In this document: one piece after another, positions 8,514 to 45,287 of the stretch | Layout: each line of letters opens with the position of its first letter | Position numbering within the stretch: the stretch's first letter is position 1 | Origin: a virus | Virus record (IMG/VR): IMGVR_UViG_3300048672_001038 | Span: 1-48,057 of that record | Reading direction: 5' to 3' (one strand) | Length of the DNA: 48,057 nt | Program-made: the position numbers and the translations under genes | Notes under the pieces: generated by a model | What the model saw: only the letters and a program-made list of their open reading frames with translations | What the model was told of the DNA's origin: nothing | The model's database searches: none

Positions 8514-8522
8514 CTTTTCCTC

Positions 8523-11107: not shown

Positions 11108-11117
11108 TTTATTTCCT

Positions 11118-16096: not shown

Positions 16097-16132
16097 TTGA
16101 AGACTCCAGAAAGTTGTTGAAGGGATGGAAGA

Positions 16133-16161
16133 AGTATAACGTCAGTTGGGAGGGAGTGCAA
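16133..16161 (-). promoter_or_regulatory. sigma70-like promoter (early class)
   Basis: TTGCAC at 16156-16161, 17-bp spacer, TATACT at 16133-16138 on the minus strand, with ACCGC directly before the -35. Nearly the same sequence stands at 16532-16558. It overlaps the 3' end of the upstream gene. Confidence 0.7.
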
Positions 16162-16501: not shown

Positions 16502-16531
16502 TAAATTTCCTGGGTGTGAATTGATGAAAGA

Positions 16532-16558
16532 AGTATAACGTCAGTTGCGAGAGTGCAA
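16532..16558 (-). promoter_or_regulatory. sigma70-like promoter at the cas3 3' end
   Basis: TTGCAC at 16553-16558 and TATACT at 16532-16537, minus strand, with a short 15-bp spacer. The cas3 stop codon lies 6 bp upstream, within GTGTAACACCGCTTGC. The same 16 bp stand at the end of the gene at 24521, also just before a promoter. Confidence 0.6.
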
Positions 16559-16564
16559 GCGGTG

Positions 16565-18619
16565 TTACACAATTAAGCCAGGATTGTACGCATTACCAGT
16601 GTCCACTATGACACCTAGCACCGGGTCATACATTCCCTCCCGTAATACCAGGGTATCTTCAAACTTCAAATGCTCTACTGCCAGCCCAGAATCCAACAAA
16701 TATTTCCGGTCTTTTGCATATACTGAAATCGACACTTGCTGCATTTTCTTAATTGATGAAGCGGGTTCACAAACCACAGTGAACAGCATTTCATCATCAA
16801 TCACCCGCGCATCTTTCGCAAAACTGGCAAACTGAATCAACTCGACGTTATCGCCAAGTTTCGCCATCAGCTTATCACCAACATCAACTGAATTCAAATA
16901 ATGATTGAAAAACAGTCGTGTGGCGTTAACATCTGTTAGCTTATGCTTATTCAGAACGGTAATCGTACTGATACTCGCCGCTCTAATTGACGGCGGCAAT
17001 TTGTTATCAATGTGTGGGAAAACAATAACATACCCCATCTTTTGTTTCCCTTCCCGATTGCATCTTCCAGCCGCCTGCACGATGCTATCAAGACCGGCAA
17101 ATTCCTTGAACACAATCGGAAAATCAAAATCAACCCCAGCTTCAACTAACTGCGTTGAAATGACTTTCACAATTTCCCCATTAGCTAGTTTCTCTTTGAT
17201 TTCGGCAATCACCTGCTTTCGATGTTTCGGATGCATATAAGCAGACAAGTAAACAAGCTCCGGACAAACATCTCGCAAATCTTGAAACAGGTCAAGAGCG
17301 TGCTTACGCGTGTTAACAATCGTTAAACTGCTCCCGTGCTGAATAATTTCGGAATGAACATTGAAGTTAGGTTCATACTCAATTTCAACCCGTTTTAGCC
17401 GGCCGTGTAACTCACCCGGATTGGAAATAATTTCTTGCGGACGGACGTTATACTTATACGCGTAGTCAGCTTGAGTGGCAGTAGATAGAACAATTGAACA
17501 ATTGAAATCTTCTACCAAACTTTTCAAAGCATCCATAGTGGGTGTTAGCAAATTTACAGGTAGTAATTGCGATTCGTCCAAAATGATAACGCTATTTTCA
17601 ATCGCTTGTAATTTTCTCAATTTAGAATTTTTACATGCGAATAATGATTCGAGGAATTGAACAACAGTCGTCACAATGATGGGTGAGTCCCACGTCTGAG
17701 CTTGCAATTTGTATTTGTCAATCCCTTCATCATTTGATTCTTTCGGGTCAAAATTAGAGTGGTGCTCAAGCACATTCTCTTTGCCAAAAATGCTCTTATA
17801 AATCTTGGCTGTCTGGTCAATGATGGACGTGTATGGAATGACAACAATCACCCGCTTCTTTTCGTGTGTCCGCGCATGCTTCAACGCAAACCGCATCCCG
17901 GAAAGAGTCTTGCCACCACCAGTCGGAACAGATAAAGAAAACCAGCCAGGAGTCTTTTCAGCAGATGCAATACAATCCTCCAAGATTTCGTTACGGGTAA
18001 AATGAATTTGCTCAGTAGGAACGAATTTGCTCATATGCTTTTCCATCACTGAATCAAGCACTGGAATGGAATCGTAAGAGATTTCAGGTTGGGTTTTGTA
18101 AAAATTGGCCGTGTCCGTCCAGTCAGCATGAACAAGTTTCGACAAAGTAAATCGCATCCGCATAGCGACGTTACCAGACATTTTGAACCCTTTTATCGGA
18201 TACTGTTCAGCAGGAATTTGATGCAAATACGAGACAGATTCTTGATACTCCGTTTTTCTGGCTTGCATCTTATCTTTAATACTGAATCCATCCTGCAACC
18301 CTGTATGATGGCACATGATGGCAATAGATGCTATTTTAGTTTCATACGAATCAAATTGATATCCATTTTTATGGAGCAGCTTCGCCAGATGAATCGCACC
18401 AGCAGCCGAATGAGTTTTAGCCTCTTTTGAAAAAGAGGCTGGATGGTCAGACAGTAAGTATTCCTGAAACCCTGTACGGAATTTGCCCGCATCATGGAAC
18501 AGGCCGAGCAATTTGAAATAGTTACCACCAGCGATTTTGTCCGCAACTCCTTGCAAATGGTCAAGCAAACCATGATAGGTTCTTCCAGAAGGTGTCACGT
18601 AACTATGGGCGTAGTGCAT
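16565..18619 (-). CDS. cas3: CRISPR-associated helicase-nuclease Cas3, type I-C
   Basis: About 684 residues. It is recruited by Cascade to degrade the target DNA. The HD nuclease domain is intact: YAHS at residues 3-6, GLFHDAGKF near 39-47, HSAAGA near 70 and CHHTGL near 103-108. The helicase part has Walker A VPTGGGKT near 231, a DExx-box LDESQ, motif III LSTAT, motif V QLVEAGVDFDFP and motif VI QAAGRCNREGK. ATG 18619 is chosen because Cas3 proteins usually begin just before YAHS; an in-frame TTG at 18679 lies inside the -35 box. No clear Shine-Dalgarno precedes it. It is separated from the other cas genes by the array and has its own promoter. Confidence 0.95.
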   Translation of the reverse strand: MHYAHSYVTPSGRTYHGLLDHLQGVADKIAGGNYFKLLGLFHDAGKFRTGFQEYLLSDHPASFSKEAKTHSAAGAIHLAKLLHKNGYQFDSYETKIASIAIMCHHTGLQDGFSIKDKMQARKTEYQESVSYLHQIPAEQYPIKGFKMSGNVAMRMRFTLSKLVHADWTDTANFYKTQPEISYDSIPVLDSVMEKHMSKFVPTEQIHFTRNEILEDCIASAEKTPGWFSLSVPTGGGKTLSGMRFALKHARTHEKKRVIVVIPYTSIIDQTAKIYKSIFGKENVLEHHSNFDPKESNDEGIDKYKLQAQTWDSPIIVTTVVQFLESLFACKNSKLRKLQAIENSVIILDESQLLPVNLLTPTMDALKSLVEDFNCSIVLSTATQADYAYKYNVRPQEIISNPGELHGRLKRVEIEYEPNFNVHSEIIQHGSSLTIVNTRKHALDLFQDLRDVCPELVYLSAYMHPKHRKQVIAEIKEKLANGEIVKVISTQLVEAGVDFDFPIVFKEFAGLDSIVQAAGRCNREGKQKMGYVIVFPHIDNKLPPSIRAASISTITVLNKHKLTDVNATRLFFNHYLNSVDVGDKLMAKLGDNVELIQFASFAKDARVIDDEMLFTVVCEPASSIKKMQQVSISVYAKDRKYLLDSGLAVEHLKFEDTLVLREGMYDPVLGVIVDTGNAYNPGLIV

Positions 18620-18636
18620 TTTTGATGATGGAAAGA

Positions 18637-18688
18637 AAAAGATGCTTGACAGTTTATCCGAGGCTGGTCGGTCTGTCAAGCATCTTTT
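18637..18688 (-). promoter_or_regulatory. cas3 promoter inside a 16-bp inverted repeat
   Basis: Arms 18637-18652 and 18673-18688 are perfect reverse complements (AAAAGATGCTTGACAG), 20 bp apart. On the minus strand TTGACA (18674-18679), a 17-bp spacer and TAAACT (18651-18656) form a promoter for cas3. As RNA from upstream, the arms would form a hairpin followed by TTTTTCTTT, so the site could also act as terminator or attenuator of array transcripts, or bind a regulator. Confidence 0.7.
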
Positions 18689-18762
18689 AATAGGTGGGAA
18701 AACTTTGTTCGGTGTTCAGGGTTCACTATTTGCTGACACCGTAACGGCGTACATGATGTGTG

Positions 18763-20015
18763 TTTTAAAGAATCTACCGGCGTAAGCCGGTAGATTCACC
18801 GAACTCGACATGTGAGATAATCTGCATACCGTGGTTTCAATACACTACCGGCGTAAGCCGGTAGATTCACCAATTTGATTCGTTCGATGATTCTGCGGCG
18901 AATAAACTGTTTCAATACACTACCGGCGTAAGCCGGTAGATTCACTTCTCAGACCCTGCCATCCTGCAGCGGAAAAATAGTTTCAATACACTACCGGCGT
19001 AAGCCGGTAGATTCACCGTCCGCCAAGGGCTTGACCTCGCTCGGCTGCTAGTTTCAATACACTACCGGCTTACGCCGGTAGATTCACTTAGCGAAAGCGA
19101 TAAACGACTTTGCGGAGCTTTGTTTCAATACACTACCGGCTTACGCCGGTAGATTCACGCAATATCCGCTCACTGTTCCGTGCTGGCGCAGGCGGTTTCA
19201 ATACACTACCGGCTTACGCCGGTAGATTCACGCTCTTTGCGCACGATATTGACGACATTTCAATACACTACCGGCTTACGCCGGTAGATTCACTATCACT
19301 GTGAATGAAATGTACGCGCTGATGCCGTGGTTTCAATACACTACCGGCTTACGCCGGTAGATTCACACAATCAAGTTTCTGCCAATGACGGCAGCATGAG
19401 CTGTTTCAATACACTACCGGCTTACGCCGGTAGATTCACATATACAGCCACAGAACTGTATTGATAAACGAATCTGTTTCAATACACTACCGGCTTACGC
19501 CGGTAGATTCACCGCATAGCTCGCACATATCATCGTTGTCAGTTGAGTTTCAATACACTACCGGCTTACGCCGGTAGATTCACGCTTGCGCTGCTCGGTA
19601 AGCATATTGATTTCAGAGTTTCAATACACTACCGGCTTACGCCGGTAGATTCACTCGCTTCGAGTTTTGCTGAGATTTTCTCTGAGCTGTTTCAATACAC
19701 TACCGGCTTACGCCGGTAGATTCACTTCCGCCCACAGCTTTGACCCGGCCGGATGCTCAAGTTTCAATACACTACCGGCTTACGCCGGTAGATTCACCGC
19801 GCGGTCAAGCTGTATATTGCTTTTCGCTCGAAAGAGTTTCAATACACTACCGGCTTACGCCGGTAGATTCACATATGAGCCTGCGAGTAACCCGCCAGGG
19901 ATGTCTAGTTTCAATACACTACCGGCTTACGCCGGTAGATTCACATAATCGGCTTGAGAATCAGGTCGATGCGATGCAGTTTCAATACACTACCGGCTTA
20001 CGCCGGTAGATTCAC
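18763..20015 (-). CRISPR. type I-C CRISPR array, 18 repeats and 17 spacers
   Basis: Repeats are 37 bp. On the minus (transcribed) strand each reads GTGAAT, stem CTACCGGC, loop GTAA, stem GCCGGTAG, then the 11-nt handle TGTATTGAAAC. ATTGAAAC at the 3' end and the 11-nt handle fit type I-C processing by Cas5. Repeat starts on the plus strand: 18763 (degenerate last repeat), 18834, 18909, 18980, 19051, 19122, 19195, 19257, 19330, 19403, 19476, 19547, 19618, 19689, 19761, 19836, 19908 and 19979. Spacers are 34-38 bp except one of 25 bp (19232-19256). The four repeats nearest cas3 have loop TTAC instead of GTAA. Leader side is 20016. Confidence 0.98.
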
Positions 20016-20139
20016 CTTGCTTTCGTAAGGTGTTGATTTTGTTAGGTTTTCTGACACTTTCCGCGAACCTTCGTTTTTACGGTTCACCTTTTGGTCAGCG
20101 AGCCAAAGGTAAAAGCAAAAACCCTTAAAAATCAATCAC
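20016..20139 (-). promoter_or_regulatory. CRISPR leader
   Basis: 124-bp gap between the cas8c stop and the first, perfect repeat. On the transcribed strand it is AT-rich (TGATTTTTAAGGGTTTTTGC) with A-runs near the array, as leaders are. Leader polarity is supported by the degenerate repeat at the opposite end. No confident -35/-10 pair was found, so the array may also be read through from the cas operon. Confidence 0.65.
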
Positions 20140-20553
20140 TTAGACCTCGCGCGAACCTTCGGCAACAGAGTCGCCACTAGGGGTCTGCGCATTCTTTGCT
20201 TTTCGTGCAGCTCGTTCAGTATCAAAGACCGCACGTTGATGAGCGAATCCAAGATGCAGTTGGGTAGCATCCTTTTCCACAGATGCATTAATCAGTGAAG
20301 CGAACAGCGAGTTTCGCAGGCTGAGAAGATTGGTAGTAAATTCCGATTTCCCGTATTGCCGAATAATCAACTTTTCCCAATGCACATATTCGGTAATCCG
20401 GGCAATGTCTTGCGGCTTGGATGTCAGCTTGCGCAGATACTTTTCTACAACCCCTCGTTGAACACCAGTGCTACTGGCACGGGCAGCAATTTGTTGCATT
20501 TGTTCATATACTGCCAGCAGTCGGCCGACGATGAACGAATAGTTGGTAGGCAT
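20140..20553 (-). CDS. cas11c: small subunit Cas11c from an internal start in cas8c
   Basis: Within cas8c, the codon for Met414 (20553) is preceded at 8 nt by GGAG in the context GCAGGAGCAG, a strong ribosome site. Translation from it would give a 137-residue protein starting MPTNYSFIVGRLLAVYEQMQ. Type I-C systems are known to make Cas11 this way. Cas11 lines the Cascade belly and stabilises the non-target strand. The call rests on the site and on family knowledge; expression is not shown. Confidence 0.75.
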   Translation of the reverse strand: MPTNYSFIVGRLLAVYEQMQQIAARASSTGVQRGVVEKYLRKLTSKPQDIARITEYVHWEKLIIRQYGKSEFTTNLLSLRNSLFASLINASVEKDATQLHLGFAHQRAVFDTERAARKAKNAQTPSGDSVAEGSREV

Positions 20554-21792
20554 TTGTTCTGCTCCTGCAAATTTCAAAAAGTTGGTAAGGTTCTTCCGAG
20601 TGAACGGCTGATTTTTGTCTTCGGCCATGATACCAGAAAGACGGTCGATGGCGCAAGCGGAACTTCGATGGAGTGAACCACGGTCAAAGATATGACTAAT
20701 GATTTCTCGTTTCAAAAGCTGCATCATACTGGAATTAGTACCACGTTTCGGGGCAAGTTGTTCAGCGATTTGCTTAACAGTCTGAGAACCCATCGTGTTA
20801 AGCCAATTGTCAACTTTCTTCGCTAGCACGCTCAGTTTCGTTTCAACAAGGTCTGAAATGAACAGGCGAGCGACGTTAGTATGCACGAAAAATACATACA
20901 GGTCAACATCGACTGCACTTTCGTTACTAGTCCAAAGGGCGTTAATTTTCTTCTTGACATTCAGCAATTTAACGACCGGGTTAGTGACATAATCACCGAA
21001 CAGGTCTGCCAGAAAATCATCTTCTTGTTCAGCATTCTTGAAGAAATAAACACAGCCGGAGTTCTCAGTAAACTTGATGAAATAGTTATCCATCAGGTAT
21101 TGGAGAGTTTGTGAATACTTCGTAATGTCTGAGGCAGAAATTCCATCCCGTTGATAGTCTTTCAAGTGCAGGAAAGAATCGAATGCAGGGACGTTATAAG
21201 AAACCAGCACTGCTCCGTTAGCGCCTGATGCCATTTTGCCAGAGGTTTTAATGAACGGATGATTGGTGGCTTGTCCGAACTTGTTCAAAGCGTAATCAAG
21301 CACATCCGCCATTTGACAAATGATGTGTGGGATGTTTTGGTCATCAATGACACGAATGGCACAGAAATTAGATTTCGGCCCCGTACTGGAAAATGCGTGA
21401 TTGGGCAAATCGACCAATTGCTCTAATTGGTCAAGTGGTGCAGATTCTAGAAACGTGATAACGGATTGAACAAACGGATTATGCAGTTGTGCATTCATTT
21501 CGCACAGTTCATCATAAAATGCTTGTTGGCATTTTTCAGCACGTTCAACTTTATCACCAATAGTGTATCCAAAAATGTACACGGGCTTATCCCAACCGAC
21601 GTTGGGTGCGATACCATTCGTTCGTGCCCGAGACACGACAGCCAGTTCAGCATCAGTGGGTAGAACGGCCAGCAGGTTTCCTGACATATCGATATCAACG
21701 AAATACGCCATTTTGACTGGACTGACTCCTGCGCGCACCAGTTTGTCTGCAACTTGCGGGTAAATGTCAAGAAGACGTTCGATGGGATGCAT
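20140..21792 (-). CDS. cas8c: Cascade large subunit Cas8c (Csd1)
   Basis: 550 residues, usual length for type I-C Cas8c. It recognises the PAM and helps unwind target DNA. The N-terminus (MAYFVDIDMSGNLLAVLP, then APNVGWDKPVYIFGY and QQAFYDELCEM) has the Csd1 order: beta strands with a 'DG/SG' turn, a WDKxxYxxGY segment and a helix holding the RHxxF-like region. The C-terminal part (SFIVGRLLAVYEQMQ) corresponds to the Cas11-like helical bundle. It starts 12 bp after cas5 and is followed by the leader. The ribosome site is AAAGG. Confidence 0.92.
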   Translation of the reverse strand: MHPIERLLDIYPQVADKLVRAGVSPVKMAYFVDIDMSGNLLAVLPTDAELAVVSRARTNGIAPNVGWDKPVYIFGYTIGDKVERAEKCQQAFYDELCEMNAQLHNPFVQSVITFLESAPLDQLEQLVDLPNHAFSSTGPKSNFCAIRVIDDQNIPHIICQMADVLDYALNKFGQATNHPFIKTSGKMASGANGAVLVSYNVPAFDSFLHLKDYQRDGISASDITKYSQTLQYLMDNYFIKFTENSGCVYFFKNAEQEDDFLADLFGDYVTNPVVKLLNVKKKINALWTSNESAVDVDLYVFFVHTNVARLFISDLVETKLSVLAKKVDNWLNTMGSQTVKQIAEQLAPKRGTNSSMMQLLKREIISHIFDRGSLHRSSACAIDRLSGIMAEDKNQPFTRKNLTNFLKFAGAEQMPTNYSFIVGRLLAVYEQMQQIAARASSTGVQRGVVEKYLRKLTSKPQDIARITEYVHWEKLIIRQYGKSEFTTNLLSLRNSLFASLINASVEKDATQLHLGFAHQRAVFDTERAARKAKNAQTPSGDSVAEGSREV

Positions 21793-21804
21793 GATAAACC
21801 TTTG

Positions 21805-22407
21805 TTAAAATTTGATAACGCCGTTTTGAACTTTCACCCGAGTCCAAGAAATTTCAGCCTGTTTCAGTTTATTGTATTTTGTTGGATGAATGATGTCATG
21901 CAGCATTGTACCGTAATCACTAGAATGGTCAATCGGTTTTTTGTCGTCAAAGTCTTCGAGGACGAAACCGACAAATTCGCGCATACCGAGGAATGCCTGT
22001 TTGTAATGCTTCCCTGCTGCGAGACGGTCACGAAAAATGGCCGCATGCTTACCAGGGGTGTTAGCCCCTTCGCGGTCACATCCTTCGTCTTGTATAGTGA
22101 AAAACACTCGATAGTCAACATTTTCAAGAAACGAAATGTTGTACTGATGGCGATGCTTTGCGTTGAGTTGTGGGTTTGTCACCTCACGAGGACTAAATTT
22201 CAGTCCATTCAGTTTGATATATCCACGCCGTATGGGGTTAAGAATTTGAATCTCACGAATGATGACTCGCATTTCCGGCTTTGAATAAACACTTCCAATG
22301 ATTTGCCGAAGGGCAGAACCAGTCGGGACATCATAAGACATGCGTTCACCATTCAGGTGAGGATTAGTAAAACAGGCACGATCACCAATGATGCGACAAG
22401 ACAGCAT
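21805..22407 (-). CDS. cas5c: Cas5c (Cas5d), crRNA-processing subunit
   Basis: 200 residues. In type I-C this subunit cuts the precursor RNA and binds the 5' handle. It shows NPHLNGERMSYDVPTGSALR at the N-terminus, IQILNPIRRGYI near residue 54 and the C-terminal signature GKHAAIFRDR with AFLGMREF. Lys120-His121 lie in the position of the catalytic Lys-His of Bacillus halodurans Cas5d; Tyr41 is a candidate for the active tyrosine. It is slightly short but complete. AAGGAA precedes the ATG. It follows cas7 after a 58-bp gap with a hairpin. Confidence 0.93.
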   Translation of the reverse strand: MLSCRIIGDRACFTNPHLNGERMSYDVPTGSALRQIIGSVYSKPEMRVIIREIQILNPIRRGYIKLNGLKFSPREVTNPQLNAKHRHQYNISFLENVDYRVFFTIQDEGCDREGANTPGKHAAIFRDRLAAGKHYKQAFLGMREFVGFVLEDFDDKKPIDHSSDYGTMLHDIIHPTKYNKLKQAEISWTRVKVQNGVIKF

Positions 22408-22430
22408 GCTAATTCCTTTTCAGAAGATGA

Positions 22431-22450
22431 AGCAGGGGTACTCCCCTGCT
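22431..22450. other. hairpin between cas7 and cas5
   Basis: Perfect 8-bp stem AGCAGGGG / CCCCTGCT with a 4-nt loop, in the 58-bp gap after the cas7 stop. No T-run follows on the minus strand, so it is not a standard terminator. It could protect the cas7 RNA end or partly limit downstream expression. Confidence 0.6.
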
Positions 22451-22465
22451 GTTTTCGATGCTGAA

Positions 22466-23335
22466 TTATACCACTCGGGTAATCTTGACGCCAGCAGAAA
22501 GTTCAACGGATTCTCCGACTTCAAGGTCTGCGCCACCGTTAACGGTAATCGTGTAATCTTCAAAGCAGGTCGGTTCAGCCGATGCCTTGATGTCAACACT
22601 ACGGGTAGTGCGATACGAATTCATCTTACCGAGCACCGAATCATGGTCAATACGGTACAGGCGCTCGACATAGCAATCAGCACGACCCGCCGATTTGGAC
22701 AGCTCAAACATATTGGCAAAGGCTTCTTCAAAGACGGTCATGTCTTCAGCGGTCACGCGAGAATTGCGCGCGTAAATCGGGTTGAAGAAAGCATGCTGCA
22801 CATAAACGGCATGGTTGACAATCCATTTGTTACCCATCGTCTGCGTTTGTTCTTCCTTGCGACCGAATGAGCTGGTAATGGAAACGATTTCAGGATTGAT
22901 GGGGAGTACCGACTTGGCAAAACCGAATTGAATCGGGCCGGAAACTTGGGCGTTATCATCGCCGCTAGATTCTTCTTCAACCTCGTCATCGGTTTCTGCA
23001 GCCTTCTTACTGGCCTTCTTACCCTTCTTGTCTGCCTTCTTCGGCTTGGTGATTACTGCGCCAAACAGGCGCGCATCCCAGAACGAAGCAAGCACTTCCA
23101 CAGGAGTCTTGCCATCGTACAGCGAATGAATATTCACACCACTCTGGCACAGCAGTGGCATTTCATGAACTGCTTGCACGAAATCACGAATCTTGCGCTT
23201 GATGGATACGTCGGTAATAAGTCCGTATCCGTTAGAATCAACGCGAGGTTGATTGCCGTTATCCGGATCGCCGTTCGGGTTGCTATTGATGACGTTGTAG
23301 ACGGCCACGTATTCACGGCGATTGAGAGTAGTCAT
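22466..23335 (-). CDS. cas7c: Cascade backbone subunit Cas7c (Csd2)
   Basis: 289 residues, usual for type I-C Cas7. It polymerises along the crRNA. The N-terminal strand and NPNGDPDNGNQPRVD (residues 19-33) with LITDVSIKRKIRDFV are the family signature. WDARLFGAV, GPIQFGFAKSVLPI, ITSSF and TMGNK follow in the usual order, and FEEAFANMFELSKSAGR matches the C-terminal helix. Residues about 97-129 are an unusual low-complexity insert, first Lys-rich then Asp/Glu-rich, between FGAV and GPIQ. It is first in the cas operon, unlike the standard order. AAGGAA precedes the ATG. Confidence 0.95.
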   Translation of the reverse strand: MTTLNRREYVAVYNVINSNPNGDPDNGNQPRVDSNGYGLITDVSIKRKIRDFVQAVHEMPLLCQSGVNIHSLYDGKTPVEVLASFWDARLFGAVITKPKKADKKGKKASKKAAETDDEVEEESSGDDNAQVSGPIQFGFAKSVLPINPEIVSITSSFGRKEEQTQTMGNKWIVNHAVYVQHAFFNPIYARNSRVTAEDMTVFEEAFANMFELSKSAGRADCYVERLYRIDHDSVLGKMNSYRTTRSVDIKASAEPTCFEDYTITVNGGADLEVGESVELSAGVKITRVV

Positions 23336-23361: not shown

Positions 23362-23419
23362 AGTTGCTGCGTGTTTTGCAGTGTTTGTATTATGCGGTAG
23401 TTCGGAAATTAGTGCAAGG
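23362..23419 (-). promoter_or_regulatory. cas operon promoter (58-bp duplicated element)
   Basis: TTGCAC at 23412-23417, 17-bp spacer, CATAAT at 23389-23394 on the minus strand. The 58 bp are identical to 24069-24126 before the neighbouring gene. A short CTGC/GCAG hairpin lies just after the predicted start. The leader to cas7 is about 46 nt. Confidence 0.8.
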
Positions 23420-35614: not shown

Positions 35615-36478
35615 TTAGGTGAAATCTGTAGAAGAAAAGAGGGAAGCGCAAAGGTTCGCCATGCGCTTTTCTTCTTTTTCATCCACGCCAAATACATTCC
35701 ACGGCACATCTTTCGCGTAAAGCTCTAGTGAATGCTCCATTATTTCTTTGAGCAGTGCCATATTTTCTGGGCTTCCGGCATATGTCTTTTTAATGTTTTC
35801 GTCACGGGTGAGCATTTGCAGATTACGCAGATGCCCTGCAGCAGCCGGGTGGACGCCAAAACGGAAACAAAAAGCAATTGATACAATATGGTCTAGGTTG
35901 TATTCACCTGAATCATTACTTCTGGTAAAATTATGCGGATTAATAATGTCATAATTTGCCAGATAGTACACGTCGGAAACTGCTCTAGTTCTGCGCTTGT
36001 ACGCTTCAAAGTAATCGTAATTTAGATGCGGGCGAGTTTGCCGGCCATGTTTTTGCTTAAAGTGCGCAAGAGCGTTTTGCATTCTGGCCTGCCCGCCACA
36101 ATGCAGGCATGGAGTATAACCCCGTTTTTTATACCCCGTCATAATGTTATTGTGCCGCATCACTTGCTGCGTGCCACAACACGGGGCAGTAACAGTGAAA
36201 CATGCTTTATTATCCGCATCGTACTCAAAAAATAAGACGTTGGTGTACCCAAGTTTACAAATCTCATTCATTTGCCGCTGCTGATCGGCGCGACGTTTAG
36301 CCGCAGTATTACACTCTGCACATTCAGATGATGGGGATGAAGTTATTTCAACTTTCCCACACGATACACAAGTGCGATTTCGATACTTACGGTATTTGTC
36401 TTTATCAATCACCAACAGTTCTTCAAGTGTGTACTTGGAGATATCGAGGGATGCGGAATCAGTTTTCTTTTTAGTCAT
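35615..36478 (-). CDS. HNH endonuclease with zinc fingers
   Basis: 287 residues. The C-terminal HNH core is NLDHIVSIAF (D196-H197) followed by HLRNLQMLTRDENIKK (N219, N228, K230), the usual D-H...N...N-x-K order. Upstream lie several Cys pairs (C37/C40, C53/C56, C100/C101, C124/C127) that probably form zinc fingers for DNA binding. Free-standing HNH genes in phages often act as homing nucleases and sit beside essential virion genes, here the major capsid gene. AAAGGT precedes the ATG. Confidence 0.82.
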   Translation of the reverse strand: MTKKKTDSASLDISKYTLEELLVIDKDKYRKYRNRTCVSCGKVEITSSPSSECAECNTAAKRRADQQRQMNEICKLGYTNVLFFEYDADNKACFTVTAPCCGTQQVMRHNNIMTGYKKRGYTPCLHCGGQARMQNALAHFKQKHGRQTRPHLNYDYFEAYKRRTRAVSDVYYLANYDIINPHNFTRSNDSGEYNLDHIVSIAFCFRFGVHPAAAGHLRNLQMLTRDENIKKTYAGSPENMALLKEIMEHSLELYAKDVPWNVFGVDEKEEKRMANLCASLFSSTDFT

Positions 36479-36529
36479 GGTTTACCTTTCTTTGAAACCG
36501 TTCAGTCACCATTTACTGAACATGCATGA

Positions 36530-36557
36530 ATTGTAACACACGATTTCAGTTTTCAAC
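36530..36557 (-). promoter_or_regulatory. possible promoter of the HNH gene
   Basis: TACAAT at 36530-36535 with GTTGAA at 36552-36557 (16-bp spacer), minus strand. Weaker than the other promoters. Confidence 0.4.
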
Positions 36558-36641
36558 AACGGACTGAAAAAATTTATTCAATCGGCAATTCATCTGACTA
36601 CTACACTAGAAATCAATCTACTTTCCGTGCACACATGAAAA

Positions 36642-36661
36642 AAGCCACCCGAAGGTGGCTT
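36642..36661 (-). terminator. intrinsic terminator after the capsid gene
   Basis: Stem AAGCCACC / GGTGGCTT with TTCG loop on the minus strand, followed by T4. It lies 28 bp after the capsid stop. Confidence 0.88.
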
Positions 36662-36689
36662 TTCCGAAAGGAACCGTGTTAAGTGCCGA

Positions 36690-37952
36690 TTAGCTGAAAG
36701 CTACGTTCTTAACAAGCAAACGACAGTAGAAGTCCGAAGAATTCCCTAGTGACGTTGCGGTGTCAGTGAAATAAGCCTTACCATAACGGGTGCTCAGTGA
36801 CACGGCTTGAGTGAAAGTGTTCGGGTCAGTTACCACGCCGGTTGCCACCAGGGGCACATATGGGCAGTAGAAATAACCGGCGCCGAGTTCGCTGTTACCG
36901 TCCTTATAACCAATCAGGATGTTTTCACCGGTTGCGCCGACAGCACTGGAAGCACCACCACCGATAGTCCACGCGTCATCAAGACCCCAATTGTATGAAT
37001 ACACGTCCATCGTGCCATTCAGACGACCGACCTTCCGGTTGCCGCTCGGAGCTTCGTAGCTACCTTGGGCGGTCGGAGCGAATACAGCCTTAGAAGCCGA
37101 CTGCAGCATGCTGGTCACGAAATGTGAACCAACCAGCCAGTTAGCTTGGCCCTTACGAACCTTGGCACCGATTTCGTTTGAATGCTTGTTAATCAGCACG
37201 CCCAGATGTGCATAGCGGTCGGCCAGTGAGTTTGGTGCAAAACCGGCAGTCGGGTTAGCAAAATCAAACGTGGAGGTTGAACCAGCCAGTGACATCAGAT
37301 CGGTCAGGATTTCGTTGTCGATTTCAGCAGCGATGGTAGCTGAAACGTGGGCGACCATTTCGGCTTCGATATCGATGCCGTGTTGCGACTTCATATCGGT
37401 CGCAGCTTCGGTTGTCCAACGAGCTTGCATCTTACGCGCGTAAGCGGTAACGGTTTGCTTGAGCACTTGCGGTGCCATTGCCTTACCGCCGAAACCTTCA
37501 TAATTAGCAGTCGTTGCGCCAAAACCATCAGTGGTCGCAGCAGTCAGCGCGGGCGGATAGCCAGTCGTGCCGACGTTAGCCGATGAGTAGAAGCGCTTCA
37601 TCTTACCGCTGTTACCAAACAGTTCGTCACCAACGGCGATGTCGTTAGCAGTCAGAACGCCACCCGCATCAGCCACGTCCTTAGCGACGAAACGAGTTGA
37701 GAACACCAGACCAACCGGGCCACTCAGAGGCTGCACGCCAACGAGGTCAGTAGCGATAGTGCCAGGGATAATACGGCGAATCATCGGAATCGCAATCTTT
37801 TGGAAATTACCAATGTCACCAGCCATAGCGTTAGTGCCGCCAGCGGTTTCCATCAGAGCGTGTTGATTTTCCATCAGAGTTGATACGATTTCGCGCTTAC
37901 TACCCGTCAGCCCGTTGAGTAGGGCTTCTTTTTGTGCTTGCCAATTTTGCAT
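36690..37952 (-). CDS. 23: major capsid protein, T4 gp23-like
   Basis: 420 residues. It builds the head shell. The N-terminal delta region has SKREIVSTLMENQHALMETAGG, with possible prohead-protease sites after LME, as gp23 is cut by gp21. The core shows IPMIRRIIPGTIATDLVGVQPLSGPVGLVFSTR, the gp23 signature, and AEMVAHVSATIAAEIDNEIL. It is shorter than T4 gp23 (521), so insertions are missing. It follows scaffold and protease in T4 order. AAGGAG precedes the ATG. Confidence 0.96.
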   Translation of the reverse strand: MQNWQAQKEALLNGLTGSKREIVSTLMENQHALMETAGGTNAMAGDIGNFQKIAIPMIRRIIPGTIATDLVGVQPLSGPVGLVFSTRFVAKDVADAGGVLTANDIAVGDELFGNSGKMKRFYSSANVGTTGYPPALTAATTDGFGATTANYEGFGGKAMAPQVLKQTVTAYARKMQARWTTEAATDMKSQHGIDIEAEMVAHVSATIAAEIDNEILTDLMSLAGSTSTFDFANPTAGFAPNSLADRYAHLGVLINKHSNEIGAKVRKGQANWLVGSHFVTSMLQSASKAVFAPTAQGSYEAPSGNRKVGRLNGTMDVYSYNWGLDDAWTIGGGASSAVGATGENILIGYKDGNSELGAGYFYCPYVPLVATGVVTDPNTFTQAVSLSTRYGKAYFTDTATSLGNSSDFYCRLLVKNVAFS

Positions 37953-37989
37953 GTTTAATTCTCCTTAAAGTAAATTTGGCTTGTTAAAA

Positions 37990-38886
37990 TTACAGCCCTG
38001 CGAGGCTTTTCCAGCGGTCGATTTGTGAATCGGTAGCTGATTCGTTAACTTGGCGTTGACCATTTCCGGTTACGACAGTTACATTCTTCGGGGCAACCTC
38101 AGTTTTAGACTCGGTTACGGTCTTAACATCGGTGGTAGATTCTTTGATAATCTTGCCGATGAAATACTGATATGATTCGTCCAGCTTTTCAGTTTCAACG
38201 TTCTTCAGAAGGATTTCCATCTGTTCACGCTTCTTACCTGAAAGGGGAGCCAGCACTTGAGCCAGCTTTGATTCACGAACCATTTGATTCATTTGTGCTT
38301 CGACTTCAGCAAGGCGGGCGGCAGTATCAGCAGCCTTAGATTCCGCAATCTTCAGCTTGCCAGCAACGGTGCTAGAGTCTTCTTGTTGGGTCTTGGCGAA
38401 CGTGTCGGCAAAAGCTTCAAACAGCTTGCGACCAAATTCGTTTTGCTTGACGAGCTGAATGTCTTCCTTCAGTTCGGTCATTTCTTGGCGGACTTCTTGC
38501 TCAAGGAACATGTCAACTTTGTCAACCAACTGGTCGATTTCTCGTTGCAGTTCTTCCGCAAGGCGGGCCTTTTCTTCTACAATCTTTTCCGCATAGACAA
38601 CTTCTTGGTCGCGGTAATGACTGATATCATTCTTGAACTCTGACAGTTCAGCGGCAACTTGCTCACCCAGATAACTGTCAAGCTTTTCTACCAGTTCGTC
38701 CATTTCAGTAACCCATTGCTGGCGCCACTGTTCTTTCAGCTCCTTAGTCACTGATTCAGTTACGTCTTGAGTAACTTTTGCAATATGCGATTCAGTAACT
38801 TGCTGGAATTGAGAAGTAATTTGCGACTTGGTATCTTCACTTAACAGTTCGCTTGCGACGAGCTGTTGAAGGATTTCATCAAACAT
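37990..38886 (-). CDS. 22: prohead scaffold (core) protein, T4 gp22-like
   Basis: 298 residues, rich in Glu/Lys/Gln and almost wholly coiled-coil. Internal similarity is visible between ELVEKLDSYLGEQVAAELSE and DQLVDKVDMFLEQEVRQEMTE. Scaffold proteins of this class line the prohead and are degraded by gp21. It sits directly upstream of the capsid gene in T4 order. The length compares with 269 in T4. AGGAG precedes the ATG. Confidence 0.88.
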   Translation of the reverse strand: MFDEILQQLVASELLSEDTKSQITSQFQQVTESHIAKVTQDVTESVTKELKEQWRQQWVTEMDELVEKLDSYLGEQVAAELSEFKNDISHYRDQEVVYAEKIVEEKARLAEELQREIDQLVDKVDMFLEQEVRQEMTELKEDIQLVKQNEFGRKLFEAFADTFAKTQQEDSSTVAGKLKIAESKAADTAARLAEVEAQMNQMVRESKLAQVLAPLSGKKREQMEILLKNVETEKLDESYQYFIGKIIKESTTDVKTVTESKTEVAPKNVTVVTGNGQRQVNESATDSQIDRWKSLAGL

Positions 38887-38946
38887 CGGTTTCTCCTATT
38901 CTTCTGATAAATTATTTTTCAAATTTATTCAGCACTTTCTATACAT

Positions 38947-38953
38947 TTATTTA
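38947..38953 (-). promoter_or_regulatory. late-type promoter box TAAATAA
   Basis: TAAATAA on the minus strand, 61 bp before the scaffold ATG. A second TAAATAA lies at 39001-39007. Likely starts the scaffold-capsid late transcript. Confidence 0.45.
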
Positions 38954-39012
38954 GAGCACTGTGAAAATTTGAATCAAAAATTCTTTGATACAGATGACGT
39001 TATTTAGGGGCT

Positions 39013-39029
39013 GTAACAGATGGTTACAT
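39013..39029. promoter_or_regulatory. operator-like inverted repeat
   Basis: TGTAAC, 5-bp spacer, GTTACA in the divergent region between scaffold (-) and the plus-strand gene at 39096. It could bind a dimeric regulator; no protein candidate is known. Confidence 0.3.
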
Positions 39030-39095
39030 CTTTTTGCTTGACTTGATGGAAGATGTATGGGAAACTGATGCATCTTCTGTCACCAATCACCAAAA

Positions 39096-39596
39096 ATGTT
39101 TTCTCCAAACACCCTGAAATACGCTAATCAGATGAAAACTGAATGGGAACCTGTGTTGCGGGTCATTCGGGAAGAAATGCTGGAATACATCATGCAAACT
39201 GATGGGATGAGGTATTCCCAGGAAAGTAATATGATGGGCGCGTGTGTGTTAACCAGTTGCGTAGTGAAACGGGTGATGAGTGAAAAATATCCTGATTGGA
39301 AATTTTCACTGGTAGCTAACAACTGTCACTGCTTCTGTATCGGTCGGAATGCAGTTGGTCGCAGACTGTTGATTGATTTGACAGCTACGCAATTCAGTTG
39401 CCGAGCGAAGGTGGAAGAAATCGAAGTGAAACCGTTCGTCAATGGAACGAATGTTGAGTGGTATCCCGGCTTTTGGGACTATTCACAGATGTATGCGTCG
39501 ATGGCAGAAGCTGTTAACGACTTTGAAGACGGGTATGGGTGGAAGAATCCTGGAGATTATGAGAAGGTAGTTGGGAGAATTTTTGGTAGAATGTGA
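39096..39596 (+). CDS. possible papain-like cysteine protease
   Basis: 166 residues, lone plus-strand gene within the head block. The order C50 (GACVLTSC), H78 (NNCHCFCIGR) and D94 (LLIDLTATQF) fits a papain or transglutaminase-like triad, where the Asp is often in I-D-x-T-A-x-Q-F. The overall similarity to any one family is low, so this is an inference from motif order. It could be a head-maturation or effector enzyme. No membrane segment. A terminator follows directly. Confidence 0.5.
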   Translation: MFSPNTLKYANQMKTEWEPVLRVIREEMLEYIMQTDGMRYSQESNMMGACVLTSCVVKRVMSEKYPDWKFSLVANNCHCFCIGRNAVGRRLLIDLTATQFSCRAKVEEIEVKPFVNGTNVEWYPGFWDYSQMYASMAEAVNDFEDGYGWKNPGDYEKVVGRIFGRM

Positions 39597-39619
39597 AAGG
39601 GGCCGTTGGCCCCCTTTTT
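39597..39619. terminator. bidirectional intrinsic terminator
   Basis: Stem GGGGCC / GGCCCC, 3-nt loop GTT, T5 after it on the plus strand and A3 before it. Separates the convergent genes at 39096 (+) and 39618 (-). Confidence 0.88.
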
Positions 39620-40640
39620 ATTCGCGCATCACTCGCTGCACATCATACACAAAACTTCGATATTCGAGTTGTTGGTCGATAGTTGTTTGTTCTTTCGCAG
39701 AAGCGAATGACTTGGCGAAGAAGAAATCCAAAAAGAACTCTTTGAAACTTTTTTGATATCCTTCTGGCCAAGTTTTGTTCGGCTTACAGATAGCATCAAA
39801 CCGTTGTTTCAGCCATGCGATAGTTAGTTTATCCATCGGGTAACTCAGGGAAGAAGATACGTTCACAATGTCATCCCAATTATCGAAATAGAAATCTTCA
39901 CTTCCCGGAATGGCTAACAGATTGTTAATGGTTTGTTTGCGGGGCAAAGCAGAAATTCGCGCAACCGGAATTAATTTACCAAGGTCTGATTTACCAGTGA
40001 CGATGAAATCATATTTCTTGTCGGCGAAATGATACAGGGTGGGGCGGGGAATATTCCTAAGCCAATCCGCCATTTCACTAGCAATATCATCGCCATATAG
40101 ATGTTTCAAGATATCTTCATCGGGCGAATGTGATTCGACTTTGCCAGACCGTTTGTAGATAGTTTGTTGAGAAACATCCTTAAACGCTTCTATCGTTTTG
40201 AGCATATGGTTTCGATAGTAAGCCAGTGTTTTATCGCCATACAGTTCGGCGTGCGTGAAACATGTTCGCAGTTCAGAAATCAATTTATCGAACGAGTTTT
40301 CCAATTCCTCTATTTTGTCTTCTCTGATTTCATCTTTTCGGAAATGGGGTAAAGAAACAAGCAGCCGTTGATATTCGGTGTTAAAGTCCTGCATTTTACT
40401 TCCGAGTGATTCTGGAATGGGTGGGTCGTGTGGAATAGAGACTTGCCAATTATAATCCCCACTTTTCGAAAGCAAAATTGACAAAATAGCATGGTGATAT
40501 GTTGTTCTTGTAGCCCGGTCATAATGCACCACCGCACCATCGGGAACATCTGGATTGAAATGACTATAAGACATCGGTAAATCTTCTTTGCCTTGATGGG
40601 TTTTCTTTTCAACAGATTCAAATAGGTTGTGTAGTTTCAT
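39618..40640 (-). CDS. MKL-family protein, candidate internal head protein
   Basis: 340 residues. MKLHNLFES at the N-terminus ends in a predicted prohead-protease site (LFE/S). A middle segment has LYGDKTLAYYRNHMLKTIEA, the YG-plus-helix motif shared with the neighbouring family members. The rest is mixed alpha/beta, with RKQTINNLLAIPG and YQKSFKEFFLDFFFAKSFAS. By analogy with T4 IP proteins and Alt, it may be packaged in the head and injected with DNA. No enzymatic motif is seen. Confidence 0.65.
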   Translation of the reverse strand: MKLHNLFESVEKKTHQGKEDLPMSYSHFNPDVPDGAVVHYDRATRTTYHHAILSILLSKSGDYNWQVSIPHDPPIPESLGSKMQDFNTEYQRLLVSLPHFRKDEIREDKIEELENSFDKLISELRTCFTHAELYGDKTLAYYRNHMLKTIEAFKDVSQQTIYKRSGKVESHSPDEDILKHLYGDDIASEMADWLRNIPRPTLYHFADKKYDFIVTGKSDLGKLIPVARISALPRKQTINNLLAIPGSEDFYFDNWDDIVNVSSSLSYPMDKLTIAWLKQRFDAICKPNKTWPEGYQKSFKEFFLDFFFAKSFASAKEQTTIDQQLEYRSFVYDVQRVMRE

Positions 40641-40644
40641 GTTA

Positions 40645-41469
40645 TTACCCTAGGTTAAACGCATGGTGTTGTTTAAGAAACTCCACCACATCTTGTTGCT
40701 CGGCTGATAAATCAGTTTCGGATGAAGTCTGAATCACATCATCTCGTTCTTCATTCAATTTCAGAAAAACCAATTGCTCTGATTGGGGCACGATGACAAA
40801 ATTCTGTTCGGGATGGTTTTGATTGGTGGCGATGACAGTGGTGTATTTCCGTTCAGCACGTTTAACGACTGGCGGAACCTTTTTATAAAACATCCAGTTA
40901 TTCTCATCTCCGGCGAACGCCTTTTCAAGCACTCTGGGTGTCAATTCACCGCTCTTAATATGCGGAATGATATGGAACGAGAATCCGTTATGGGTGTAAT
41001 CAAACTCGTAATGAACATACGGTGATTTACTCCAAAGGGCTTTGCGTAACTTAGTTTCCAACTTTTTGTTAAAGTATGCTAGGTTATAGTTTCCAAACCA
41101 ATCGCTAGATGTGAAATCCGGCAGATGCTGCTGAAGCACCCGGATAAACTTTGGATACGCGACTTTAATGATATCAATCAAATCTTCTTTCGCATCGTCA
41201 TCCATTCCTTGATAATGTTGTAGCTTGCTACCAAAAATACGATGATACTTATAAAGGAAATCTGCGGAATCGTCGGATAGTTCAGCAGAAAGAATGTCCT
41301 CCACATATTCTTGGTTTTCGCGCTTATACTTTTTAGCTAAAGCTTTAATCGCCGTTTCAAAATGCCCGTTAATATAATCTGTGGACTGATTTGGCCCGGC
41401 ATCAAGTAACGCATCTGCCAATGGCTGAATTCTTTGGGTGGATGATTCAAATAGTTGTTGTAGTTTCAT
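40645..41469 (-). CDS. MKL-family protein, candidate internal head protein
   Basis: 274 residues. MKLQQLFES N-terminus with protease site. The family motif appears as DWFGNYNLAYFNKKLETKLR near residue 122, followed by YVHYEFDYTHNGFSFHI. The C-terminus is charged (DLSAEQQDVVEFLKQHHA). The start overlaps the stop of the next family gene (ATGA), so the cluster is one operon. Confidence 0.65.
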   Translation of the reverse strand: MKLQQLFESSTQRIQPLADALLDAGPNQSTDYINGHFETAIKALAKKYKRENQEYVEDILSAELSDDSADFLYKYHRIFGSKLQHYQGMDDDAKEDLIDIIKVAYPKFIRVLQQHLPDFTSSDWFGNYNLAYFNKKLETKLRKALWSKSPYVHYEFDYTHNGFSFHIIPHIKSGELTPRVLEKAFAGDENNWMFYKKVPPVVKRAERKYTTVIATNQNHPEQNFVIVPQSEQLVFLKLNEERDDVIQTSSETDLSAEQQDVVEFLKQHHAFNLG

Positions 41470-42326
41470 TTTACAAACTCCAGTGCAGGAAAATAACGGT
41501 CATCAGAGAAAACAGAGTCGAATGCATTAACAATCGCATCCGTGTGCTCGGCAAATATTGCGCCCATTTTAACGGGTATTACACCTTCTTCCTCTGTCTT
41601 TCTAGCGGCTTGCAGGGAAGATGTAATATACGCACCGTGCCAGTTTTCTTCCGTGCGCAGCCAATATGATGTGGCGTATTGGTCTAGAACGGATACCATT
41701 AAAAATTGATTAGCAACCCTGAAGAAAACTAATCTCCGAGGGGGATTACTTGGCGCCGCTTGACTGTACATATCAACCAAATTAAACATTTCTGGCGCAT
41801 GCGTTTTCAGGTTAAGGGCGGCGATTAAGGGCGCTGCGCTGAAGTAATGCACCGACCCGCCACTCGAAGGCACTTCAAACACATCAACGCCCGCCTTGGA
41901 ATAAATCTTGCACGCTTCATCAGTGGAGGTTGCAGCGAGTTTTTCTACCACCTTTTTCAACATCATGTTGATATAGCCGGGTGTTTTTGAACCATAGAAA
42001 AACTGATGCGTTTCGTCAGAGTACATTGCTTTGATTTCTTGAAATTTAGCAATGGCGTCGTCAACTTCAATATCAACCTCGTCATCATAATCGGCTGTAT
42101 CACGCCGACTGGCAATTTCCATACATTTCACCCGTATAGCTTTTAGCTTGATACTGATTTTAATGCGCAGGTGGTCGTTGGCAATCCTACTGATATGTCG
42201 GATAGAATTGGCAGTTGGGGCTTTAGTGGTATCGGCCAGAACTTCTATCAGTTGCTCAAAAATTCCGGGCTTTTGTCCCGGAGGGGTGGCCGTTTGGTCA
42301 GATTCTATTAGATGACGCAGTTTCAT
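41466..42326 (-). CDS. MKL-family protein, candidate internal head protein
   Basis: 286 residues. MKLRHLIES N-terminus (LIE/S). The family motif is FFYGSKTPGYINMMLKKVVE near residue 109, then VDVFEVPSSGGSVHYFS. The preceding helix is acidic (YDDEVDIEVDDAIAKFQ). Translationally coupled to its neighbour. Confidence 0.65.
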   Translation of the reverse strand: MKLRHLIESDQTATPPGQKPGIFEQLIEVLADTTKAPTANSIRHISRIANDHLRIKISIKLKAIRVKCMEIASRRDTADYDDEVDIEVDDAIAKFQEIKAMYSDETHQFFYGSKTPGYINMMLKKVVEKLAATSTDEACKIYSKAGVDVFEVPSSGGSVHYFSAAPLIAALNLKTHAPEMFNLVDMYSQAAPSNPPRRLVFFRVANQFLMVSVLDQYATSYWLRTEENWHGAYITSSLQAARKTEEEGVIPVKMGAIFAEHTDAIVNAFDSVFSDDRYFPALEFVK

Positions 42327-42331
42327 TTCAA

Positions 42332-43207
42332 TTACCCGAAATGTATATTTAACGAAGGCTTGACTCGCGCTTGCATATGCTTAGTCAATACTTCCATGAT
42401 ACCCTCTGCCAAAATATCTTCATTTCGTTTGAACACCGGGCCGAACCCGAGCAGTACCGTATCCGTGTGTGGTTCTAACACTTTGAAAATCCGAGTTCCT
42501 GTAGTGCTGGCAGCAAATCCAATCATATCATACAAATAGTCCATTCGGTCGAAAATTAGCATATATTCGCTCTCACATTCTACGACAGCCACTTGACTAC
42601 ATTCTAACGTCATTGCATCCACTGCTTTAATCCAGTGTTCCATAGCCGGATGTTTGGCAACATCCAAACTTTGCAGCAGTTCTTTCAGTCCAATATGGAA
42701 ACCTGAGTCATCAGCCGCCATATAAATTTTGACCGGGCCATTGGCATATACCTGATTTAGCGCGGCAGTTTGTTTTTCAAGCTGGGCGTGGATAGTTGAA
42801 CGCAATTGATGCATAACGGCCGCATGGGATTTATTTCCATAGACGGTTTTATGTGGCAACTCAGCTTTCAAAATATTGATAAGGTCTGACAGGTCTGATG
42901 ACAATTTAGTTTCATACTTGTCCAGCGAATCATCTTGGTCTTCAGACTGATATTCATAAGAACCTATAGAATTGATAGCTTGTACCATTGTCTTTCGGAA
43001 CTGATTGAATCTGAAAGTCAATCCAAAATTGGAACGTTCTAATTTAGCAAGCGTTTCAGTGTTGAAGCTGCATTTAAAACTTACAGCTCGATTGAGGGTG
43101 AGAAGCATCGGAATGATTCCTTCAGTATCCTCATTGATAGTAATAACGGTATGCTTAGTTATCGAGTTGATATCAACCTGCGATTCAAACAAATGCTGAA
43201 GTTTCAT
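42332..43207 (-). CDS. MKL-family protein, candidate internal head protein
   Basis: 291 residues. MKLQHLFES N-terminus. The family motif is VYGNKSHAAVMHQLRSTIH near residue 121, followed by VKIYMAADDSGFHIGL. First gene of the minus-strand cluster, with AAGGGA before the ATG and a late-type box 16 bp upstream. Confidence 0.65.
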   Translation of the reverse strand: MKLQHLFESQVDINSITKHTVITINEDTEGIIPMLLTLNRAVSFKCSFNTETLAKLERSNFGLTFRFNQFRKTMVQAINSIGSYEYQSEDQDDSLDKYETKLSSDLSDLINILKAELPHKTVYGNKSHAAVMHQLRSTIHAQLEKQTAALNQVYANGPVKIYMAADDSGFHIGLKELLQSLDVAKHPAMEHWIKAVDAMTLECSQVAVVECESEYMLIFDRMDYLYDMIGFAASTTGTRIFKVLEPHTDTVLLGFGPVFKRNEDILAEGIMEVLTKHMQARVKPSLNIHFG

Positions 43208-43222
43208 GTGTTCCCTTTTCCA

Positions 43223-43229
43223 TTATTTA
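43223..43229 (-). promoter_or_regulatory. late-type promoter box TAAATAA
   Basis: TAAATAA on the minus strand, 16 bp before the first gene of the MKL cluster (43207). Confidence 0.5.
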
Positions 43230-43230
43230 G

Positions 43231-43255
43231 AAAGGGGGCCATTGGCCCCCTTTTT
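43231..43255. terminator. hairpin terminator after the protease gene
   Basis: Stem GGGGGCC / GGCCCCC with ATT loop, flanked by A3 and T5. On the minus strand it follows the protease stop directly; the T-run there is short (CTTTCT), so termination may be partial. Confidence 0.65.
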
Positions 43256-43865
43256 ACTTACTCATCGCGGTAATCAGCTTCATAATCTCTTTTCGGAAAT
43301 ATTCTTGAGCCTTCGCGTCATGAATCATCGCTTCAGCAAGCGTGGTCACGGGTTTATGTTGCATAGCTTCATAGATCGGATCAGGGATGGCAATACGGCA
43401 TGAAGGGTCGGCCACAAGGTCTACGGTGATGCATTTGAAGCCAGACACCATGCCATCTGCGCCAACAGCACCTGAGCCACGGGTTGAGCATGCTAACCGA
43501 ACACCACCCTCAATCAACCCTTTAGCAATGTTGCCAGGGGCGGTCTTCATAATTTTCAGCTTGGCAATGACATTGTTCTCTGTCATACTCACGGAAGTAA
43601 CAGCATGAGAAACGTTCCACAAATTAATGTCAAGTGTGTTAGGATGGTTCAGTTCACCTAGGATGAAATTACCTGTTTTGATTCGCTCTTGCCATGCATT
43701 CATATTTTGCTGCATTTCGTCAAGCTTGTACACTCGGCCATTGCCATTTTTGACATTAGCTTGAGCGATGACACCCGAAAGATACAAGTTCTTTTCTTTG
43801 TCCATCATTTCCATCAGATTCGATGTTTGTGGATTGACGTTTTCGATTAACAGTTGGTTGTTCAT
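43254..43865 (-). CDS. 21: prohead maturation protease, T4 gp21-like
   Basis: 203 residues. The serine protease of the prohead that cuts scaffold, capsid and internal proteins. LSGVIAQANVKNGNGRVY, GELNHP (catalytic His), AKLKIMKTAPGNIAKGL and LACSTRGSGAV (catalytic Ser) give the family order. The ATG at 43865 is chosen because the TAAATA box at 43885 would place the RNA start past the upstream ATG at 43880. Its own start MNNQLLIEN holds an LIE site for self-processing. Confidence 0.93.
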   Translation of the reverse strand: MNNQLLIENVNPQTSNLMEMMDKEKNLYLSGVIAQANVKNGNGRVYKLDEMQQNMNAWQERIKTGNFILGELNHPNTLDINLWNVSHAVTSVSMTENNVIAKLKIMKTAPGNIAKGLIEGGVRLACSTRGSGAVGADGMVSGFKCITVDLVADPSCRIAIPDPIYEAMQHKPVTTLAEAMIHDAKAQEYFRKEIMKLITAMSK

Positions 43866-43884
43866 GGGAAATAGATACATTTCA

Positions 43885-43891
43885 TCTATTT
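43885..43891 (-). promoter_or_regulatory. late-type promoter box TAAATAG
   Basis: TAAATAG on the minus strand upstream of the protease gene; forms a divergent pair with the box at 43903. Confidence 0.45.
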
Positions 43892-43902
43892 ACCCGAAAT
43901 GT

Positions 43903-43909
43903 TAAATAC
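43903..43909 (+). promoter_or_regulatory. late-type promoter box TAAATAC
   Basis: TAAATAC 15 bp before the plus-strand MKL gene at 43925. Confidence 0.45.
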
Positions 43910-43924
43910 TGAAAAAGGTATTCT

Positions 43925-45262: not shown

Positions 45263-45287
45263 AAAGGGGGCCATCGGCCCCCTTTTT
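45262..45287. terminator. bidirectional intrinsic terminator
   Basis: Stem GGGGGCC / GGCCCCC with ATC loop, A5 before and T5 after. It separates the convergent MKL gene (+) and portal gene (-). The same stem is used at 43231. Confidence 0.92.

Follow-up and report, generated by a model that had tools for sequence, protein, structure and literature searches.

Can a bacteriophage carry a complete machinery for RNA-guided destruction of DNA, and against which DNA would it be directed? This question is raised by the IMG/VR virus record IMGVR_UViG_3300048672_001038, a linear metagenomic fragment of 48,057 bases, which was analyzed in its entire length and is called the window in the following. A preliminary description had placed all parts of a type I-C CRISPR (clustered regularly interspaced short palindromic repeats) interference module at positions 16565-23335, and profile searches together with array detection located them in exactly this region. 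The compact 6.8-kb locus lies entirely on the minus strand, and its parts follow one another as cas7-cas5c-cas8c-array-cas3 when read with transcription. Pfam, NCBIfam and PADLOC concur in assigning all four proteins to type I-C. These family matches and the conserved order of phage genes on both sides confirmed that a complete I-C interference module is located inside phage DNA. We consider it probable from the sequence that a T4-like jumbo phage captured this module, placed it under a phage promoter and uses it against competing phages or plasmids.

The module consists of the following features, given in the order of transcription.

23387..23417, minus strand: putative promoter of the cas7-cas5c-cas8c operon, TTGCAC-17-CATAAT, in a 31-nt block TTGCACTAATTTCCGAACTACCGCATAATAC that occurs again at 24094-24124
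22466..23335, minus strand: cas7 (Csd2), Cascade backbone, 289 amino acids, first gene of the operon; PF05107 (Cas_Cas7) 2.5e-63
22431..22450, minus strand: hairpin between cas7 and cas5c, -14.7 kcal/mol, z -3.9; putative role discussed below
21805..22407, minus strand: cas5c, predicted endonuclease for precursor CRISPR RNA, 200 amino acids; TIGR01876 2.2e-34, above cut-off
20140..21792, minus strand: cas8c (Csd1), divergent large subunit, 550 amino acids; PF09709 (Cas_Csd1) 3.7e-35, above gathering score
20140..20553, minus strand: predicted cas11c, in-frame internal start at cas8c codon 414, 137 amino acids; AGGAG 8 nt upstream of the ATG
20016..20139, minus strand: putative array leader, preceding the perfect repeats, with the degenerate repeat at the opposite end of the array
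18763..20015, minus strand: CRISPR array, 18 repeats GTGAATCTACCGGCGTAAGCCGGTAGTGTATTGAAAC of 37 nt and 17 spacers
18636..18684, minus strand: terminator-like hairpin between array and cas3, 12 bp followed by a U-run; fold -22.6 kcal/mol, z -6.1
16565..18619, minus strand: cas3 (Cas3c), HD nuclease and helicase, 684 amino acids; PADLOC Cas3c 5.1e-175

Components of the effector and the array

The preliminary description had called Cas3, Cas5, Cas7 and Cas8c full length with intact motifs, and the family matches as well as the motifs of Cas3 and Cas5c agree with this. Disruption of the cas genes was not seen as far as this can be tested, since the four reading frames are intact. Cas3 comprises both the HD nuclease and the helicase that characterize type I-C (TIGR01587 4.3e-38; TIGR01596 for the HD domain, 6.4e-15), with structural matches to PDB 8g9u (3.1e-81) and 8zns (1.3e-82). 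The HD-domain motifs, the Walker A motif TGGGKT, DESQ (DExQ), STATQ and QAAGRCNRE are all intact. The listed open reading frame starts at TTG 18679 within the hairpin; the real start is likely ATG 18619. This ATG is not preceded by a clear Shine-Dalgarno sequence while cas7 and cas5c have one, which suggests a sparing production of Cas3.

For Cas7 the best NCBIfam model is Csd2 (TIGR02589, 4e-49), with 167.5 bits below the cut-off of 182.25. Its nearest solved structure is an I-C Cascade (PDB 7kha_B, 2.5e-34), and this match and PF05107 identify it as the I-C backbone protein. Cas5c matches PDB 8g9t_N (1.3e-19) and 4f3m (BH0337, 2.8e-13) and contains GKHAAIFRDR...FLGMREF. In an alignment to solved homologues its stretch GKHAAIFRDRLAAGKHYKQAFLGMREF retains the K-H pair, which we take to be the residues required for processing by Cas5d of Bacillus halodurans. 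Scanning of the genes adjacent to the locus yielded no Cas6, the whole window having had no dedicated Cas6 search. The large subunit Cas8c is assigned by its PF09709 score; TIGR01863 (4.1e-23) stays with 81.8 bits below its cut-off of 218.65, and the match to PDB 8dej_I is 2.1e-5.

The small subunit that the I-C Cascade requires is translated from a start codon inside cas8c (PMC7684278). The window cas8c has a single site of the type AGGAG-ATG, the one at codon 414. Among 66 cas8c genes from the loci collected for comparison, most of them bacterial, 51 have a comparable start 105-165 codons before the stop, as against 1/66 and 5/66 in two stretches that served as controls. By this sequence signal the window has the internal Cas11c start of type I-C, and because cas8c holds it, the effector is predicted to be complete, a full I-C Cascade plus Cas3.

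The array lies between cas8c and cas3 and has 18 repeats, as previously described. Its 17 spacers are all different and 34-38 nt long, except one of 25 nt. The 14 leader-side repeats are identical save one end base, and in the four leader-distal repeats at the cas3 end the loop sequence GTAA is replaced by TTAC. Since the last repeat, adjoining cas3, is degenerate, we place the leader on the cas8c side. This polarity, with changed-loop and degenerate repeats at the far end, suggests that the array was formerly extended on its leader side. The repeat folds with an 8-bp stem (z -4.4), and its 37-nt architecture and the end GTGxATTGAAAC match the I-C repeats of bacterial loci with 37-nt repeats, mostly of Pseudomonadota; the array thus has repeats of the I-C kind. 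No repeat shared with potential hosts was detected in IMG/VR, and the repeat was absent from 369 genomes of one class, 38 of one family and seven with a similar Cas3.

Phage context and a common putative promoter

The module is flanked by two conserved blocks of structural genes, identified by PHROG matches and by synteny with three IMG/VR relatives (G005, G006 and G007, the last of 349,660 bases), which share both blocks.

35615..46983, minus strand: right block with major head protein, scaffold, portal and others; syntenic in G005 and G007, and in G006 to the contig end
5356..13001, minus strand: left block with tail sheath, sheath stabilizer, virion protein and head-tail adaptor; syntenic in G005, G006 and G007

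The presence of phage structural genes on both sides, stated in the preliminary description, was thereby verified. Its statement that all genes share one strand holds for the cas genes and their near neighbours but not for the window as a whole. Portal, major head, scaffold, head-tail adaptor, sheath and sheath stabilizer are T4-like virion genes, and the nearest relatives of the major head protein belong to Xanthomonas phage XacN1 and the Stenotrophomonas phages CM1 and RAS14, whose genomes measure 320-385 kb. The window is a fragment of a T4-like jumbo myovirus. Because of these virion genes an origin from a prophage appears unlikely. The cas module is located in a variable interval between the adaptor and the prohead and major head genes, which spans about 22.6 kb in the window (13002-35614) and 8-14 kb in the three relatives. 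No Cas7 was present in 43 records reached via the major head protein, and the module is therefore a gain in the lineage of the window phage. Short CRISPR-like signals in G005 (L107, L109) were rejected as arrays and look like tandem repeats.

The 31-base block TTGCACTAATTTCCGAACTACCGCATAATAC occurs twice in the window, before cas7 and before the phage gene 23431-24045, with no second copy expected by chance (0 expected), and the two promoter regions share 88 nt at 89% identity. The phage gene, whose function is unassigned, had no match in PHROG, Pfam or PADLOC. Another promoter-like element (TTGCACT...GACGTTATACT) is likewise present twice, at 16118-16152 and 16517-16551; its copies stand in front of two small genes of the phage that follow downstream of cas3.

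A metagenomic fragment could in principle be a mis-assembly in which a bacterial cas locus was joined to phage contigs. We regard this as extremely improbable, because the module sits in the variable stretch between conserved blocks and the cas7 promoter is that of a phage gene. About 7.6 kb of the left and 11 kb of the right flank are syntenic with the three related contigs across the same interval, the G+C contents of cas8c (0.45) and cas5c (0.44) equal or approach that of the phage (0.44), and the 88-nt promoter region is common to cas7 and the adjacent phage gene. A mis-join with a bacterial contig was therefore not found, as far as flank synteny and common promoter can test it.

Function, targets and adaptation

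From these parts the following course of events can be proposed. The phage-type promoter, whose sequence is common to both genes, would drive cas7-cas5c-cas8c. The array would be transcribed from the cas8c side and end at the hairpin before cas3, as leader polarity and hairpin indicate. Cas5c, with its family assignment and K-H pair, would cut the repeat hairpins and release CRISPR RNAs. Cas7, Cas5c, Cas8c and the internally started Cas11c, all present as parts, would assemble in the manner of the known I-C Cascade. The complex would then bind a match flanked by a protospacer adjacent motif and recruit Cas3, with HD and helicase motifs intact, to shred the DNA.

The hairpin before cas3 contains TTGACA-17-TAAACT, a promoter-like sequence for cas3 that matches in 10 of 12 positions; as 29 such sites were found in comparison to 19 expected, the match by itself is not significant and may be due to chance. 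Going by its position, the hairpin could end the array transcript and allow a restart for cas3. A Cascade contains seven copies of Cas7 (PMC7684278), and cas7 as first gene together with the hairpin behind it could favour this surplus.

Since all parts are intact, RNA-guided DNA destruction appears to be the best reading of the function. The targets are most likely phages or plasmids that compete for the same host, on account of published precedent (PMC7162821) and the intact Cas3; the phage probably relies on 17 fixed targets to attack rival DNA in the cell that both occupy. Several results weigh against this reading. The concatenated spacers gave nothing above chance when compared with plasmids and, up to E 10, with phages, and no protospacer was found in 32 whole viral records. 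Two of the 17 spacers were scanned across IMG/VR with every sixth base free and had no match. Furthermore, Cas8c and Cas7 score under the NCBIfam cut-offs, so that some function may differ now. The attack on competing phages or plasmids, named as the likely role in the preliminary description, was thus not substantiated by a spacer target, and it is a role that we infer. The sole match with a low E value in the 32 records (G055, 7.5e-4) spans a spacer junction and was rejected. Within the remaining window no spacer match was longer than 13 bases.

An active module could also be aimed at the host, silencing or cutting host genes or defence islands and so helping the takeover. Spacers of huge phages against host transcription and translation genes have been reported (PMC7162821), and this fits with the lack of a spacer target in the phage and plasmid searches. 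On the other hand, the intact Cas3 would destroy its target rather than silence it; we judge this explanation unlikely. Less likely still is a passenger module, captured by chance, unused and decaying. None of the 43 major-head-protein relatives carries the module, cas3 has no clear Shine-Dalgarno sequence and the 25-nt spacer hints at a deletion, as would be expected for such a passenger. Against it stand four long reading frames that have stayed intact, catalytic motifs included, in spite of extreme divergence, the preserved Cas11c start and the phage promoter upstream; the long branches described below, combined with open frames, suggest prolonged maintenance under selection.

The phage apparently has no adaptation genes of its own. 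In accordance with the preliminary description, profile searches detected no Cas1, Cas2 or Cas4 anywhere in the 48-kb linear fragment, relatives of which reach about 350 kb. The complete genome might carry cas1, cas2 and cas4 elsewhere and thus a full adaptive system: the window samples 48 kb of a genome probably of the 300-kb class, and the array seems to have grown at its leader end, with old-type repeats at the far end. This is nevertheless very unlikely in our estimation, as cas1, cas2 and cas4 usually adjoin I-C loci and are missing here, no Cas1 was found in seven relatives of 161-360 kb, and 16 of the 21 I-C-bearing viral records, recognized by a Cas7 relative and many of them fragments, have no Cas1. 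I-C loci without cas1 in viral records are a recurrent kind. We propose that the spacer list does not change, or does so slowly when adaptation genes of the host act in trans.

Gene order and relationship to other I-C systems

Bacterial I-C systems such as those of Desulfovibrio vulgaris and Neisseria lactamica (PDB 7kha, 8dej, 8g9t/8g9u) have the same Cas3, Cas5c, Cas7 and Cas8c with internal Cas11c and, like the window, a hairpin repeat ending in ATTGAAAC. They differ in gene order, and the Cas proteins of the window are strongly divergent. Of 62 bacterial I-C loci that have all four genes, 61 show the order cas3-cas5c-cas8c-cas7; these loci were picked by Cas3 similarity and are a sample, not a census. 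The window does not have the order cas3-cas5-cas8-cas7-cas4-cas1-cas2, which is typical of the subtype and not defining. Its own order cas7-cas5c-cas8c-array-cas3 was not shared by any of the bacterial or viral loci compared. The novelty previously claimed for this order stands with respect to the bacterial loci, whereas two viral loci match it in part, L002 in cas7-cas5-cas8 and L223 in the array before cas3.

That compact CRISPR systems without adaptation genes are known in huge phages is correct. The published I-C variant (Al-Shayeb et al. 2020, PMC7162821) is phage-borne, lacks Cas1 and Cas6, and has a Cas5 of the I-C type and another helicase replacing Cas3. L002 (IMGVR_UViG_3300022719_000283, 618,736 bases), with the order cas7-cas5-cas8c-helicase-array and no Cas1, fits this description. 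The window resembles both in being phage-borne and in its Cas5, and shares cas7-cas5-cas8c with L002. In contrast to them it possesses a genuine Cas3 that includes the HD domain (Cas3c, 5.1e-175) and so falls outside the variant; its array precedes cas3, whereas that of L002 follows the helicase, and the Cas7 proteins of the window and L002 are 22% identical. In L223 (IMGVR_UViG_3300005613_000001, 527,112 bases) the array likewise separates the effector genes from cas3 and the record contains no Cas1, but the order is different, cas5-(602 amino acids)-cas7-array-cas3. The lytic Vibrio phage ICP1 (Seed et al. 2013, cited in PMC7162821) likewise carries CRISPR-Cas for use within the host; its system is of type I-F and is the exception in having retained adaptation genes.

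Phage-borne I-C without cas1 is hence already known, from the literature and repeatedly from IMG/VR. What is new is that this gene order, an intact Cas3, the Cas11c start and a promoter of phage type come together. With the published variant, which has no Cas3, the question whether phage systems of this kind destroy DNA or only silence it stayed unanswered. The signals for Cas3, Cas5c and Cas11c in one phage locus make it possible to test directly whether an I-C system carried by a phage interferes by means of a nuclease, and the compact, highly divergent Cascade-Cas3 set is a possible tool.

In IMG/VR, Cas8c had no close relatives and Cas7 remote ones only. The end branches of the window proteins are very long, 5.4 for Cas7 (median 0.43) and 3.6 for Cas3 (median 0.92). 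Cas3 groups with bacterial I-C in two trees, and its nearest sequence by identity (40%) is from Undibacterium. An approximately unbiased (AU) test rejected neither a single clade with the other phage I-C Cas3 proteins (p 0.27) nor a pairing with L223 (p 0.115). The distinct lineage considered in the preliminary description did not find support in these trees, and because of the long branches and an unrejected phage clade we make no claim on the origin. It is conceivable, though rather doubtful, that the module represents a phage-dedicated I-C sublineage, long evolved in jumbo phages, which keeps full DNA destruction by Cas3 and Cas11c, uses a phage promoter, has rearranged its operon to put Cas7 first as the subunit in greatest demand, and makes Cas3 separately and sparingly from behind the array.

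Some further observations concern the variable interval and other viral loci. In T4-like jumbo phages the interval 13002-35614 may generally serve as a site where accessory genes are inserted. It also contains a DNA methyltransferase (phrog_56, 2.3e-33) at 32557-33441, which could modify the phage DNA. The 602-amino acid protein of L223 (8188-9996) stands at the position of cas8, has no Pfam match and is a candidate for a new large subunit. In a 222-kb viral contig without Cas1 (L220), a cas3-like gene, cas5, cas8c, cas7 and an array were located at 5245-12758, and no Pfam model matched the Cas3-like protein at E 0.001. The viral contigs with L210/L211 and L216, again without Cas1 in the record, contain I-C loci with cas3 on the strand opposite to cas5c-cas8c-cas7.

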